From NCBI GenBank assembly GCA_000306725.1, contig CP003083.1, forward strand, positions 2,406,042 through 2,470,041: a stretch of 64,000 nt of DNA, read 5' to 3'. Source of the stretch: Methanolobus psychrophilus R15. Lineage in GTDB: Archaea > Halobacteriota > Methanosarcinia > Methanosarcinales > Methanosarcinaceae. Made by a program: the position numbers and the translations under genes. The notes beneath the pieces were generated by a model that did no database searches, had not been told where the DNA came from, and worked only from the letters and a program-made list of their open reading frames with translations. This document shows, in pieces, positions 15,612 through 40,431 of this stretch. The first letter of the stretch is position 1. Each line of letters opens with the position of its first letter.

Positions 15612-18140
15612 ATGTTCAAAACCATCCGATATATATTGCCAATATTATTCTTTACGATTGCTATTTTAATTTCTGTTGCTTCAGCAAGCCATCTGGGAAA
15701 CGACCTCATCCCAAATTACGGGTTTGAAGACTGGAGCAGCGGAAAACCTCTCAACTGGACTACGCCTCATGCTGACTGGGACATTGTACAAGTCGGCGGT
15801 GAAAAAGGCAACTATGCTTTGATGCTTGAGACTGACAGATACACCTCTCCCGGCAAAGGCACCATGGAAAGTGTGACCGTTGAGGTTGAAGAAGGAGACA
15901 TGTTCCTTGTTACAGCATGGGCAAGAAGCATCAATGCCCGTGAAACAAAAGCAATGGTAAGAGGCTATGATGATGAGAGGAAAAGATGGATCACTCTTAA
16001 GACCTTTAACCCGTCATCACAGATGCAACATGCATTCATTACAGTACCAGAGGACATTACCCTTCTTTGCATGAGGATTGAGGCAGGGTATGTGGACGAT
16101 AAGGATAAGGGAACTGCAAGATCCTATTTTGATGAACTGAGGATCATAGACCCTGCGGTGGAGAATGCAGAGTTCTATCTTGACGAAGGGACAATAAACA
16201 AGAACGAGACCTTGACAATAGGTTCGTATGAACTGAGCCTTGAGGAAGCAAAAGATAACAAGGCATTGATCAAGGTATCGTCCGCAGGCAAGGTCATAGA
16301 TTCCGGAGTATTAACGCCGGGCAAGTCGGTAGAGTTCAAAAGAAATAACGATAAATACCTTGTCTTTTGGGTTGACGATGTCTTTGTGAACCCGGAGTAT
16401 TCAGAAGCCAGGCTAAGTCAGCTACTGGCGGGAAGGGTAGCCTCGAATGTTCCGACTATTCGGCCGGTAGACGAAAAAGGGCTTGTTCTGTACCTGCCAC
16501 TAGATGAGAATGCAAACCTCGAAGCTTATGATTATAGCAGAGAAAGTAACCACGGAGTTATATACGGAGCAGAATGGGCAAAGGGTATGGAAAACTATGC
16601 CCTTAGGTTCGATGGCGTCACGGACTATCTGGAGATACCCAATACAGGAAACAAATTCGAAGAAGGCGACCATACATTTGCATTATGGTTGAGATCAACG
16701 GGACTACGTGACAGTACGAAATATGTAATCTGTCATTATAACTGGCGCATTGTATGGCAATCAGATTCAAAAATAGGTTTTACAATCGGCAGAATGGATA
16801 ACAAGGATGGACCTGCCTATACTATAACCGCTGATGTCTCAGAGATCAAGGAGGACTGGATTCACTTAACAGGTGTTTACAAACCTTCTGAAAACAAGGC
16901 ATTATTCTATGTCAACGGAGAGCTTGCCGGAGAAAAAGACTTTGGGAATGAGAGGATATGGGCGGATTACGGCAACCATAATCTGTTAATCGGAACCTCC
17001 AAGCACGGAGCAGCAACATTCTATGAAGGACTGGTCGACGAGGTGCGCGTCTACGACAGGGCATTAACCCCGCAGGAGATAAGGGAACTTATGTCCAAGC
17101 CCCTTGGCCTGTCTGGAGTTTCATCCTACCAGAGCTCCATGTCGCTTGAGAAAGGCATGACTTCACCTGTCGGGAACGGTTTTCAGATACAGTACTCCGA
17201 TGCACCTTATCTGAACCTGGCACTCACCGACGGGGAGCAGACACAGAGATATTCCCTTGTGAATATCTCGGAGGGGCAAACTCTGTTCCTGAAGAACTCC
17301 CAGGGTGTGGCTGCAGTAAGGCTGAACATCGACAGCATTACCAGCGAAAGACTGAATCTGTCGGACATATGGGTTGCAAATGAGAAGGCGAATGTTCCTG
17401 TGCTTAAGGTCACATCGATCGACTTCTCTCAGATACGGGCGTATGCACCTGCAACTGTCAGGGTGACGGTCGTCAACAGCGGCTCAAAGGCCTATCCTGC
17501 GGACGGCGACGGTACCATTGACCTGTATCTCGGAGACGAAAAGGTCGGCAGCTACAGGATCTCTGAGAGTCTGGCTCCAGGTGAAACTTTGGAGCACAGC
17601 TTTGAACTGAACTCAAAGAAGGCCGGGGACAATGAGCTCAGAGCGATCGTCTCCAGCAAATACGGCACTGAGAGTTCAACCAGTACAGTTAAGATCGAGC
17701 CTCCGGTAAACCCTCCTTTAAGCGGAATTCCTTTGTATGTGAAGGAGACGGGATCAGGCATAACCCTGCACATGACCTTGAACGGCCCCGGCATCAAGGG
17801 AGAGTCATGGAAGGACAATGCACAGGTATCCATAAGGATAATGGAACCTCTGGGACCAAGGACTTTCTATGATAAGTCGCATTCGATTTCCGGTGCCGGG
17901 AAGACCATTGAGATACCTTATGAGGAGTTCTATCAGGGTGATGAGCAGTATCTCATAACCGTCAAGTTCAGGGAAGCAGAAAACAGTGTAGTGGCAAAGA
18001 TAGCCGGTGAGGACGGGATCTATAACCCGCCCAACAAAAGTTACCTGCTGCTGTTGCTGCTGGTGCCGGTTACCACCTATGCAGTCAGAAGGAAGTTTTT
18101 CGGTGGAAAGGATACAGGGAAAAAGCAATCTGATGAGTGA
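15612..18140 (+). CDS. Exported surface protein with LamG/concanavalin-like domain and C-terminal anchor
   Basis: An 842-residue exported protein. It has an N-terminal signal peptide (residues 1-25, cleavage near ISVASA-S), a carbohydrate-binding-like beta domain (about 27-180, starting NLIPNYGFEDW type), a LamG/jellyroll domain (about 300-500: LVLYLPLDENANLEAYDYS, YALRFDGVTDYLEI, GLVDEVRVYDRALTPQE), a CARDB-like beta domain (about 605-700), and one C-terminal helix (about 812-828) with a basic tail. It is probably anchored on the outer face of the membrane and may bind or crosslink surface glycan; no catalytic residues are seen. The ribosome binding site AGAGG precedes ATG 15612. Its codon use is like the rest of the genome, unlike the AT-rich island before it. 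Confidence 0.75.
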   Translation: MFKTIRYILPILFFTIAILISVASASHLGNDLIPNYGFEDWSSGKPLNWTTPHADWDIVQVGGEKGNYALMLETDRYTSPGKGTMESVTVEVEEGDMFLVTAWARSINARETKAMVRGYDDERKRWITLKTFNPSSQMQHAFITVPEDITLLCMRIEAGYVDDKDKGTARSYFDELRIIDPAVENAEFYLDEGTINKNETLTIGSYELSLEEAKDNKALIKVSSAGKVIDSGVLTPGKSVEFKRNNDKYLVFWVDDVFVNPEYSEARLSQLLAGRVASNVPTIRPVDEKGLVLYLPLDENANLEAYDYSRESNHGVIYGAEWAKGMENYALRFDGVTDYLEIPNTGNKFEEGDHTFALWLRSTGLRDSTKYVICHYNWRIVWQSDSKIGFTIGRMDNKDGPAYTITADVSEIKEDWIHLTGVYKPSENKALFYVNGELAGEKDFGNERIWADYGNHNLLIGTSKHGAATFYEGLVDEVRVYDRALTPQEIRELMSKPLGLSGVSSYQSSMSLEKGMTSPVGNGFQIQYSDAPYLNLALTDGEQTQRYSLVNISEGQTLFLKNSQGVAAVRLNIDSITSERLNLSDIWVANEKANVPVLKVTSIDFSQIRAYAPATVRVTVVNSGSKAYPADGDGTIDLYLGDEKVGSYRISESLAPGETLEHSFELNSKKAGDNELRAIVSSKYGTESSTSTVKIEPPVNPPLSGIPLYVKETGSGITLHMTLNGPGIKGESWKDNAQVSIRIMEPLGPRTFYDKSHSISGAGKTIEIPYEEFYQGDEQYLITVKFREAENSVVAKIAGEDGIYNPPNKSYLLLLLLVPVTTYAVRRKFFGGKDTGKKQSDE

Positions 18141-38527: not shown

Positions 38528-38841
38528 GCTCACTTATTCTATCACTTTTCTGTTTCTATTATTATGATGACTGCGACCGAAGGTCATGTTTATGTTATTT
38601 TCTATGTTCTGACAGGGGGTTGCTTTTGCACCATTCCTGTTGCTTTCTGGTTTATTGGGATTAAGTGTGCAAATTAATGAAGTTCTTGCATTACTTGGTC
38701 AGCTCAAGAGTGTGATATTAGATTCCTTTATCTGATTCAGTCTTCAAAACAGATTGAACAAAAGAAAGCTTGTAATTCTTTCTTTTTTTACGAGTTTAAG
38801 ATGGGATTCTCAAAAGGTACTCTGAATTGTGTTATAAGTGT

Positions 38842-39011
38842 GGGCATTGTGGCCAACACGATGCCCTTAGTGGTTGGTTAGTCAAGTTTTTATGCTCCCT
38901 GCACATTAATTTTAGATTTAAAAATATATTTTTATTGAATCCAACTTTTGAACAAAAATTGATCAACTTGAATGCAGCGAAGAAAGGGCATCGTGCGGGA
39001 TTACGGTGCCC
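38842..39011 (+). ncRNA. Candidate RNA or small element: two hairpins that can also pair with each other
   Basis: Hairpin 1: GGGCATTGTG (38842-38851), loop GCCAA, CACGATGCCC (38857-38866). Hairpin 2: GGGCATCG (38986-38993), 10-base loop, CGGTGCCC (39004-39011). CACGATGCCC of hairpin 1 is the exact complement of GGGCATCGTG at 38986-38995, so a long-range stem competes with the two local ones. Both local stems contain a U-G pair that works only in a plus-strand transcript. A degenerate mobile element with folded ends is the alternative. Confidence 0.4.
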
Positions 39012-39092
39012 ATAGTGAGCCTCCTGTCTTCAGTTTCACATAATTCTCAAGTAAACCCTCTTTTGTGGGTTGCTTTCGGGGAACTTATTTTT

Positions 39093-39195
39093 AACATGAG
39101 AATTGGGGCTCATGTTTCACTTATTCACAGGAGGTGGACAAAGGTTCCAATAAGGTTTCCCACGCTTTCTTTTATTCACTCCCCGTGTCCAGTTT
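39093..39195 (+). ncRNA. Candidate structured RNA with G-rich loop
   Basis: AACATGAG (39093-39100) and CTCATGTT (39109-39116) form a perfect 8-bp stem with loop AATTGGGG. It is followed by TGGACA (near 39136) and TGTCCA (near 39187), which could form an outer stem of a second structure. Coding frames across it are weak. Confidence 0.3.
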
Positions 39196-39600
39196 AAATT
39201 ATCCTTATATATTATAAACCAATATCGAAACTACCTTCTGACTCGTGGGTTTTCCCCGCGTACTTCTGAAATTAATAATCCATCTATATACATATATAGA
39301 ATCTATTATAGAATCTATTTTTCTCATAATTAGTAAATAGGTATAAAGTCACCACATTTTTTATATCGCTTATTAATTTATTATGGCACTAAAATTATGT
39401 CCTGCTTATGGGGTAAGAGTTTATAATCATCAGTACACACCTTTAAGGACTAGATAAATTGTAATTATATATGCTTGCATATATATTATATATACACATA
39501 AAGTCTCGTTAATTTGACTAGGGACCTTATATTTTGCTGCCGCTAAAATAGCATCTTGTAATAAAATAACTTGTCACTAGCATTATTAATAAAAGGTTAT

Positions 39601-39770
39601 GTTAAATAAATAAAAGACCTACTGATTATTGCGGGTCGTGGGGGAATGAGCCGCAAATTGAGAGTGGATTAGTTGAGAGATGTTGGGGAACATCTCGGAT
39701 TCGTTAAGGAGAGAGGCGCCTTAAAGCGTGGTGGTTTCCAGGCGCCTCATACTACCTTGGTATTTTAAAC
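39601..39770 (+). ncRNA. Candidate small RNA 1 (three hairpins)
   Basis: Hairpins in a row: GCGGGTC/GAGCCGC (39631-39637 with 39648-39654, one mismatch, loop with five Gs); GAGATGTT/AACATCTC (39677-39684 with 39689-39696, loop GGGG); GAGGCGCCT/AGGCGCCTC (39713-39721 with 39740-39748, 18-base loop containing CGTGGTGGT at 39727-39735). A TATA-like AAATAAATAAAAG (39604-39616) lies about 25 bases before the first hairpin and T-rich DNA follows the last. No family is recognised. Confidence 0.5.
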
Positions 39771-40002
39771 TGTTTTCTATATAACTTCCAATACTATAAA
39801 AATGTATTCTATATATTCTATATTTTTTGTAAGCTCTTTAGCTGATTACAACATTCAAGTTAAATTGCTTTCCATGATCACTGCTTGCTCTCTAGAAGCA
39901 GAACACATTAATGATTAATTTACTAGATAAATCCATTTTACTTATTAATTTAGTAAGGCTCTATGTTAAGTTAGAATTATAAATTATTACATGTGGACTT
40001 TG

Positions 40003-40116
40003 GGAGTAGCACATTAGGGTTACTAACAGAAATTATCCCTGGTTTTTGGGAATATTGCAGAATGGATATTATGGGGGCATCCTGGACGTGGTGGTAAAGG
40101 ATGCTTCATAATACAC
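40003..40116 (+). ncRNA. Candidate small RNA 2 (hairpin with the same loop motif)
   Basis: A near-continuous 16-bp stem: TATTATG (40067-40073) with CATAATA (40107-40113), one bulged G, two G-U pairs, then GCATCCT (40077-40083) with AGGATGC (40098-40104). The 14-base loop holds CGTGGTGGT at 40087-40095, the motif also found in the third hairpin of candidate RNA 1. The G-U pairs set the transcribed strand as plus. TATA-like AATTATAAATTAT (39974-39986) would start a transcript near 40010. Confidence 0.45.
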
Positions 40117-40359
40117 TATATCAAAATGAAGATGTGTAAAATGTTTTACAGCCTTGGCAAATTAATATAATTGCTTATATCTCTACAATGATTTAATTCT
40201 ATACATGCAAAAAGCAGCATCTACTTAGGACTATATACTATATTTTAGTAGTCATACGCGGATTCCTTTACATAATATTTTTACACAATAATTATCATAT
40301 ATTTTTGTGTGTATTGTGCAAAAACCAGTATCATACTATGACTATTAAAACTATTTAAG

Positions 40360-40431
40360 TGGACTCGGCGGGATTTGAACCCGCGGCCTTTACGTTGCGA
40401 ACGTAACGATCTACCCCTGATCTACAAGCCC
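40360..40431 (-). tRNA. tRNA-Ala (CGC)
   Basis: Read on the minus strand: GGGCTTG acceptor with CGAGTCC, anticodon loop TTCGCAA (CGC), T-loop TTCAAAT, no encoded CCA. It lies about 40 bases downstream of the aEF-1beta gene on the same strand, behind a long T-tract (40448-40470) that should end that transcript. Confidence 0.95.

Follow-up and report, generated by a model that had tools for sequence, protein, structure and literature searches.

Why do two hairpins in one gene-free spacer expose the same nine-base loop on stems that look so different? The question arises downstream of the 5S rRNA gene in the window, the 64,000-nucleotide stretch of contig CP003083.1 of Methanolobus psychrophilus R15 that was analysed here. 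The 5S gene ends at position 38530, the next gene is a tRNA-Ala gene on the opposite strand (40360-40431), and both hairpins lie in between, as a preliminary description had stated. On re-reading, its coordinates and both copies of the shared loop 9-mer CGTGGTGGT were right, and so was its interpretation of the hairpins as plus-strand RNA. In hairpin 1, G39713-T39721 pairs with A39740-C39748 over exactly 9 bp, as described, and CGTGGTGGT lies at 39727-39735; in hairpin 2, 40067-40082 pairs with 40099-40113 and CGTGGTGGT lies at 40087-40095, and here the reported 16-bp stem has to be corrected to 15 bp with one bulged G. Two occurrences of CGTGGTGGT in 64 kb, against 0.18 expected and with at least two occurrences in 3 of 100 shuffles, are unusual without being decisive. 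Both regions fold better than their dinucleotide shuffles (39628-39758, z -4.5; 40056-40118, z -4.1).

Each of the two hairpins is the 3' stem-loop (P3) of an RNA gene of about 130 nt that comprises three hairpins, and the two are related by descent. The elements of these genes, designated RNA 1 and RNA 2, are as follows.

39527-39550, plus strand: degenerate copy of an upstream box, TTATATTTTGCTGCCGCTAAAATA, in which mainly the right half of the consensus TGAAATTWYAATGNCATTAAAATA is kept, about 100 nt 5' of RNA 1
39594-39613, plus strand: BRE/TATA-like promoter of RNA 1, AGGTTATGTTAAATAAATAA, corresponding to AGGTTAAATAAA, which throughout the family keeps a constant spacing to the RNA 5' end
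39628-39760, plus strand: RNA 1, a full-length member with DNA homologues, matching covariance model R1 at 39674-39760 with 103.7 bits (fold z -4.5); its 5' end is placed from the promoter and P1, its 3' end is approximate
39629-39656, plus strand: P1 of RNA 1 (TTGCGG/CCGCAA), with compensatory variants in other copies
39677-39696, plus strand: P2 of RNA 1 (GAGATGTT-GGGG-AACATCTC), 8 pairs, 4 of them with both-side changes, 97.6% of cells paired
39706-39758, plus strand: P3a of RNA 1, a basal helix (AAGG with CCTT) that encloses P3, 87.8% of cells paired, no double changes
39713-39748, plus strand: P3 of RNA 1, that is hairpin 1, with the nearly invariant loop TTAAAGCGTGGTGGTTTCC, 9 pairs, 6 of them with both-side changes, 97.3% of cells paired
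39962-39980, plus strand: promoter-like sequence of RNA 2, TATGTTAAGTTAGAATTAT, read from the sequence, resembling the RNA 1 promoter at an equal distance from P1
39989-40119, plus strand: RNA 2, a divergent paralogue, matching R1, from which it was held out, at 40036-40119 with 25.2 bits
39991-40014, plus strand: P1 of RNA 2 (ATGTG-G-ACT-TTGGG-AGT-AG-CACAT), in which GCT/AGC replaces ACT/AGT in the second genomic copy
40067-40113, plus strand: P3 of RNA 2, that is hairpin 2, with CGTGGTGGT in its loop, recognised by its fold and the R1 match and deleted in the other genomic copy of the spacer

A DNA search with positions 39610-39760 found 19 matching sites in this genome and multiple copies in other Methanolobus genomes, while outside the genus the same search returned marginal chance matches only; the element of hairpin 1 thus has about 20 more copies elsewhere in the genome. 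Aligned copies follow a common plan, in which P1 (TTGCGGG...CCGCAA) and P2 share a GGGG-type loop and P3 (GAGGCGCCT-TAAAGCGTGGTGGTTTCC-AGGCGCCTC) is framed by AAGG and CCTT. The P3 stem occurs in the variants GGCGCC, GGCACC, GGTGCT and GGTGCC, each with a matching 3' arm and an unchanged loop, and P1 shows the compensatory variants TTGCGAG/CTCGCAA, TTGTGAG/CTCACAA and TTGCAAG/CTTGCAA. When the pairs of P2 and P3 were counted over 41 sequences, 10 of 25 had changed on both sides, and there were 56 double-change cells against 18 in the shuffles (0 of 500 shuffles reached the observed value), a comparison that overstates the significance because paralogues and species are related. Since 96% of the cells are paired, against 37-55% with the partners shifted relative to each other, and the pair types are varied, the structure is nevertheless safe. 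The family loop AAAGCGUGGUGGUUU stays fixed while the stems covary, and the compensatory changes in P1, P2 and P3 bear out the proposal that selection maintains the loop across altered stems.

The relationship between the two hairpins was assessed with R1, a covariance model of P2-P3 that was built without hairpin 2. It recovered hairpin 2 as a divergent member of the family (E 3.7e-4); RNA 1 and RNA 2 have the fixed loop GUGGUGG in common, and the UUUC part of the loop has been lost from RNA 2. Two further genomes of Methanolobus carry better-preserved relatives of the RNA 2 subfamily (L032, 35.0 bits; L033, 28.7 bits). The stems, which the preliminary description took to be unrelated in sequence, are therefore homologous, and the hairpins, which it held not to stem from a duplication, are paralogues of a multi-copy gene, as seen both in the DNA matches and with the covariance model. 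The contrast that it drew between duplication and selection was a false one, because the hairpins derive from duplication.

A search of the region against Rfam 15 gave no match at the gathering score and, at E values up to 5, nothing but a chance hit to a microRNA model, so that the statement that no RNA class like this had been described holds for Rfam; the transcripts themselves, as we detail below, have very probably been reported before. Two known types of guide RNA were considered and rejected. Upon inspection, the alignments contain no conserved C (RUGAUGA) and D (CUGA) boxes near the ends, as in a C/D-box guide sRNA, and Rfam gave no match. In place of the pseudouridylation pocket of an H/ACA guide RNA, P3 forms a continuous helix, and the ACA that follows P3 in RNA 2 is not conserved in the family. 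Of the traits of a trans-acting base-pairing sRNA, the RNA has a promoter of its own, an intergenic site, a defined structure and an exposed, conserved seed.

The RNA is restricted to one set of Methanolobus genomes. Model R1 found 23 copies in this genome and between 1 and 31 in 10 other Methanolobus genomes, so that the covariance search which the preliminary description had called for placed the family in 11 of 27 genomes of the genus (31, 23, 23, 22, 21, 16, 14, 9, 7, 2 and 1 copies); the remaining 16 genomes of Methanolobus gave no match to R1, and neither did the 26 further genera of the order that were searched. A scan with the core motif returned 50 stretches, 47 of them in Methanolobus or Methanosarcinaceae records and three of them chance matches in other organisms, and the strict core pattern had no match in the viral contigs scanned. 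Many copies are arranged in tandem (L061, L066, L071, L074, L079 and others), with a second P2-P3 unit, devoid of P1 and of a promoter, no more than about 20-35 nt beyond a complete RNA. Within the window, a weak P2-like match at 17243-17290 (AGAGATATT...AATATCTCGGA; 10.9 bits, E 0.77) is probably due to chance.

Copies that are dispersed, in tandem or convergent with genes, with a conserved block that spans the RNA and the 3' end of a neighbouring FilR1 gene, might suggest a passive or selfish repeat of the MITE/REP type, or a bidirectional terminator acting in cis where genes converge, in either case devoid of a function in trans. We regard this as quite improbable, since the copies possess a dedicated conserved promoter and an upstream box, compensatory changes in three stems around an invariant loop and positions that are conserved between species, and since conserved cold-induced sRNAs of this organism have published expression (PMC5378194). 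As a rule, inverted repeats at the ends and a linked transposase are lacking, the terminal repeats having been looked at non-systematically. Mobile repeats of the MITE/REP type are expected at unrelated positions in close relatives; seven loci of this genome have matching flanks in the sister species G022 and/or G016, and the copies have therefore retained their positions and do not move freely.

Most complete copies carry AGGTTAAATAAA about 25-30 nt 5' of P1, with ATTAA further upstream, and the partly palindromic box TGAAATTWYAATGNCATTAAAATA about 100 nt 5' of P1. In 79 promoters the refined box has a median score of 23; the 99th percentile of shuffled sequences is 6.5. Allowing up to three mismatches, there are 10 box sites genome-wide (reversed control, none), seven of which precede copies of the RNA. 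Judged by these sequences, the box would be an activator-like element and most complete copies would be transcribed from promoters of their own. Two other box sites are accompanied by a family-like promoter sequence and then by a different sequence downstream. At L213 (G000:2928051-2928074, minus strand; G000 denotes this genome), box and family promoter are followed by P1-like and P2-like pieces and, where P3 would be, by a short open frame; the 5' part of the RNA may here have turned into the leader of a small gene. At L215 (G000:2862532-2862555, minus strand), the box and a family-like promoter precede an unrelated sequence, possibly another transcript under the same control.

Differential RNA sequencing of M. 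psychrophilus R15 had previously revealed nine sRNAs that are highly conserved, induced by cold and preceded by a "cold box", and 40% of the sRNAs of this strain respond to cold (Li et al., 2015; PMC5378194). The published set resembles ours in being conserved, intergenic and preceded by a common motif upstream of the promoters, in the same genus; our independently found box likewise is a conserved motif upstream of the promoter, degenerate at the copy in the window. The nine published sRNAs are thus very likely members of the hairpin RNA family, and from these data we infer that the copies, including those of the type found in the window, are likely to be switched on in the cold. The main text of that paper gives no structure, family extent, orthologues elsewhere, FilR1 link or target, so that, relative to it, the structure, the genus-wide extent, the linkage to and co-expansion with FilR1 genes and the 11-bp complementarity of the loop to FilR1 codons 2-6 are new.

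FilR1 of Methanosaeta harundinacea belongs to the PF08350 family of regulators (PMC3991700); we use the name FilR1 for proteins that combine PF08350 with an N-terminal winged helix, that is, FilR1/Msr-type regulators. Of 89 distinct 3'-most RNAs, 18 have a convergent FilR1 gene at a distance of at most 250 nt, and in 14 of these 18 cases its stop codon is positioned 76-81 nt beyond the RNA, the sequence in between being conserved. In this genome, 6 of 16 loci have such a neighbour (P 2e-8 for a random neighbour), and over 27 genomes the numbers of FilR1 genes and RNA copies are correlated (Spearman 0.73, P 1.7e-5; median of 33 FilR1 genes in RNA-bearing and 10.5 in RNA-lacking genomes), P values that are weakened because the RNA-bearing species share ancestry. 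The other 71 of the 89 distinct loci are without a convergent FilR1 gene within 250 nt, which counts against a functional tie to FilR1. Taken together, family, structure, promoter and FilR1 link range from near certain to likely. The literature searched contains no RNA partner for the FilR1/Msr regulators. At one locus, a transposase-like open frame (L205:561-1505) interrupts a FilR1 gene (pieces 99-518 and 1299-2063); the 3' half of this gene keeps its convergent orientation to a tandem RNA pair (L204), the arrangement running over the point where the chromosome record begins.

What might the invariant loop recognise? Two proposals of the preliminary description did not stand. The 9-mer CGTGGTGGT occurs 23 times on both strands of the genome, mostly in the RNA genes, and a reversed control pattern 24 times; there being no excess outside the RNAs, the simple idea of ACCACCACG targets (of the ACCACC type) was dropped. 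Pairing with the 3' end of 16S rRNA was likewise dropped, as inspection gave five of six pairs only. The suggestion that the loop may act near start codons fared better. If G-U pairs are counted, the loop 5'-GUGGUGGUUUC-3' is complementary to 5'-GAAACCAUUAC-3', which represents codons 2-6 of many FilR1 genes (KKPLL; AAG AAR CCR YTR CTT), over about 11 bp of a GAAACCAYUAC-type sequence within the start region ATGAAGAAACCATTACTT. The most stable duplexes, at many FilR1 starts, have energies of -15 to -17.6 kcal/mol, and the mean duplex energy is -11.2 kcal/mol in RNA-bearing against -7.9 kcal/mol in RNA-lacking genomes (P 2.6e-6), where the N-terminus mostly reads KKRLL (AAA AAA CGR TTA CTT) and pairs poorly. 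Compared with a null model of synonymous codons, the codon choice favours pairing in KKPL genes of RNA-bearing genomes (z -6.4, 0 of 500; this genome alone, z -4.0) and not in RNA-lacking genomes (z +0.9): the first lysine is encoded by AAG in 23 of 31 genes against a usage of 33%, and the proline by CCA or CCG in 26 of 34 against 40%. The match was noticed first and then tested on overlapping data, and all these P values are too small because paralogues and species are not independent.

Several observations count against this pairing or restrict its meaning. The choice of leucine codons at the site is alike in RNA-bearing and RNA-lacking genomes; 3 of 400 shuffled loops pair as well as the real one, which is a moderate P value; and around FilR1 codons 91-98 there is an even stronger codon bias toward pairing with the same loop (z -7.0, against -5.4 at the start), so that the start site is not the only place on the mRNA with such a signal. 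At the start, same-codon identity (0.54, against 0.48 in the gene body) is not clearly raised, some FilR1 genes of RNA-bearing genomes are without the site, and RNAs of the G008/G013 type have the loop GUUUAU instead of GUUUCC, a difference that is not mirrored in the targets. For the P1 loop, the P2 loop and the linkers, FilR1 starts are no better pairing partners than other genes or shuffles are. That FilR1 genes stand under the same upstream box as the RNA is ruled out by a median box score of -1.3 in front of them, and no box was found there.

We tentatively favour, at somewhat less than an even chance, that the P3 loop represses the translation of FilR1 mRNAs. In the cold, the RNA copies would be switched on from their own promoters with the shared upstream box; the invariant P3 loop would form about 11 bp with codons 2-6 of the mRNAs for FilR1/Msr-type winged-helix regulators; the resulting duplex would block the initiation of translation; and all copies would act additively on the many paralogous regulators. 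The full form of this proposal, in which 20-30 cold-inducible copies, kept together with a co-amplified FilR1 family, repress dozens of regulators at once through one loop, is more doubtful.

Other explanations attach to the same data. An sRNA acting in trans could have its main targets elsewhere, among cold-response mRNAs, the FilR1 link being a by-product of gene-neighbourhood duplication. Most copies, after all, do not lie beside FilR1 genes, the loop also scores well on non-FilR1 5' regions (-11.9 against -12.6 kcal/mol), and the cold response extends to the 40% of R15 sRNAs mentioned above; this is an unlikely reading, given a genome without an excess of perfect 9-mer complements and a target site and codon bias that differ between RNA-bearing and RNA-lacking genomes. 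Somewhat less unlikely, although still improbable, is a titration of protein, in which the G-rich loops (GGGGAA in P1 and P2, GUGGUGG in P3) would sequester an RNA-binding protein in the manner of CsrB/RsmZ or 6S RNA; this protein might be one of the FilR1-type regulators or belong to the cold-shock/TRAM proteins. The identical GGGG-type loops of P1 and P2, fixed loops on varying stems and many co-regulated copies suit such a function, and FilR1 co-expansion is as compatible with a protein as with an mRNA as the partner. This hypothetical binding would predict neither the codon bias at FilR1 starts nor the difference between RNA-bearing and RNA-lacking genomes. RNAs of the CsrB/RsmZ type resemble ours in repeated stem-loops that expose the same G-rich loop; their loop sequences and architecture differ from those of the Methanolobus RNA, and we know of no CsrA homologue in archaea.

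Repression of FilR1 translation by the P3 loop would have precedents in part. LhrC of Listeria monocytogenes has far fewer copies than the Methanolobus RNA, and its seeds are C-rich, not G-rich. Like our family, LhrC is encoded by several near-identical sRNA genes under common control, with conserved single-stranded motifs thought to pair (PMC4132741), but it is bacterial, and no paralogous target family is known to be linked to its copies. An archaeal sRNA of the same order, sRNA162 of Methanosarcina mazei, targets the mRNA of a transcription factor (PMC3510493); it is a different RNA, as R1 has no match in the 26 other genera searched. The literature searched contains no described archaeal RNA family with tens of covarying copies per genome, and few archaeal sRNAs have known targets. 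If the favoured reading is true, it would account for cold-induced sRNAs left uncharacterised in 2015, and one environmental signal would reset a whole paralogous family of regulators, a lineage-specific archaeal RNA-regulator network in which an sRNA family is seen expanding together with its target family. It makes a concrete prediction that can be probed by mutation (loop nucleotides against codons 2-6 of FilR1 genes). The family also comes with a shared promoter box, and sister species with and without the RNA offer a natural control.

RNA 1 and RNA 2 themselves are part of a larger duplicated unit.

38759-40265, no strand: intergenic segment of about 1.5 kb, with a second copy that is 89-95% identical at G000:1537.0-1538.4 kb, beside tRNA-Gln

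No 5S match was found at the second copy, and with its position beside tRNA-Gln this rules out another rRNA operon. There, both sides of an A-U pair in P1 of RNA 2 have changed to give G-C (ACT/AGT to GCT/AGC), and a deletion of about 100 nt between short AATAT repeats has removed P3 of RNA 2; RNA 2 therefore looks like a decaying or specialised paralogue. The duplicated spacer ends beside tRNA-Ala(CGC) at the present site and near tRNA-Gln at the other, and a relative of RNA 2 in G016 (L191) adjoins tRNA-Arg, so that insertion or duplication at tRNA genes is possible. The same spacer contains an unannotated segment, 38940-39200, that is 95-96% identical in the second copy and in G022 and about 70% identical over ~155-215 nt in G016 and G013; it folds only slightly better than its shuffles (z -1.75) and is possibly another RNA or a small gene.
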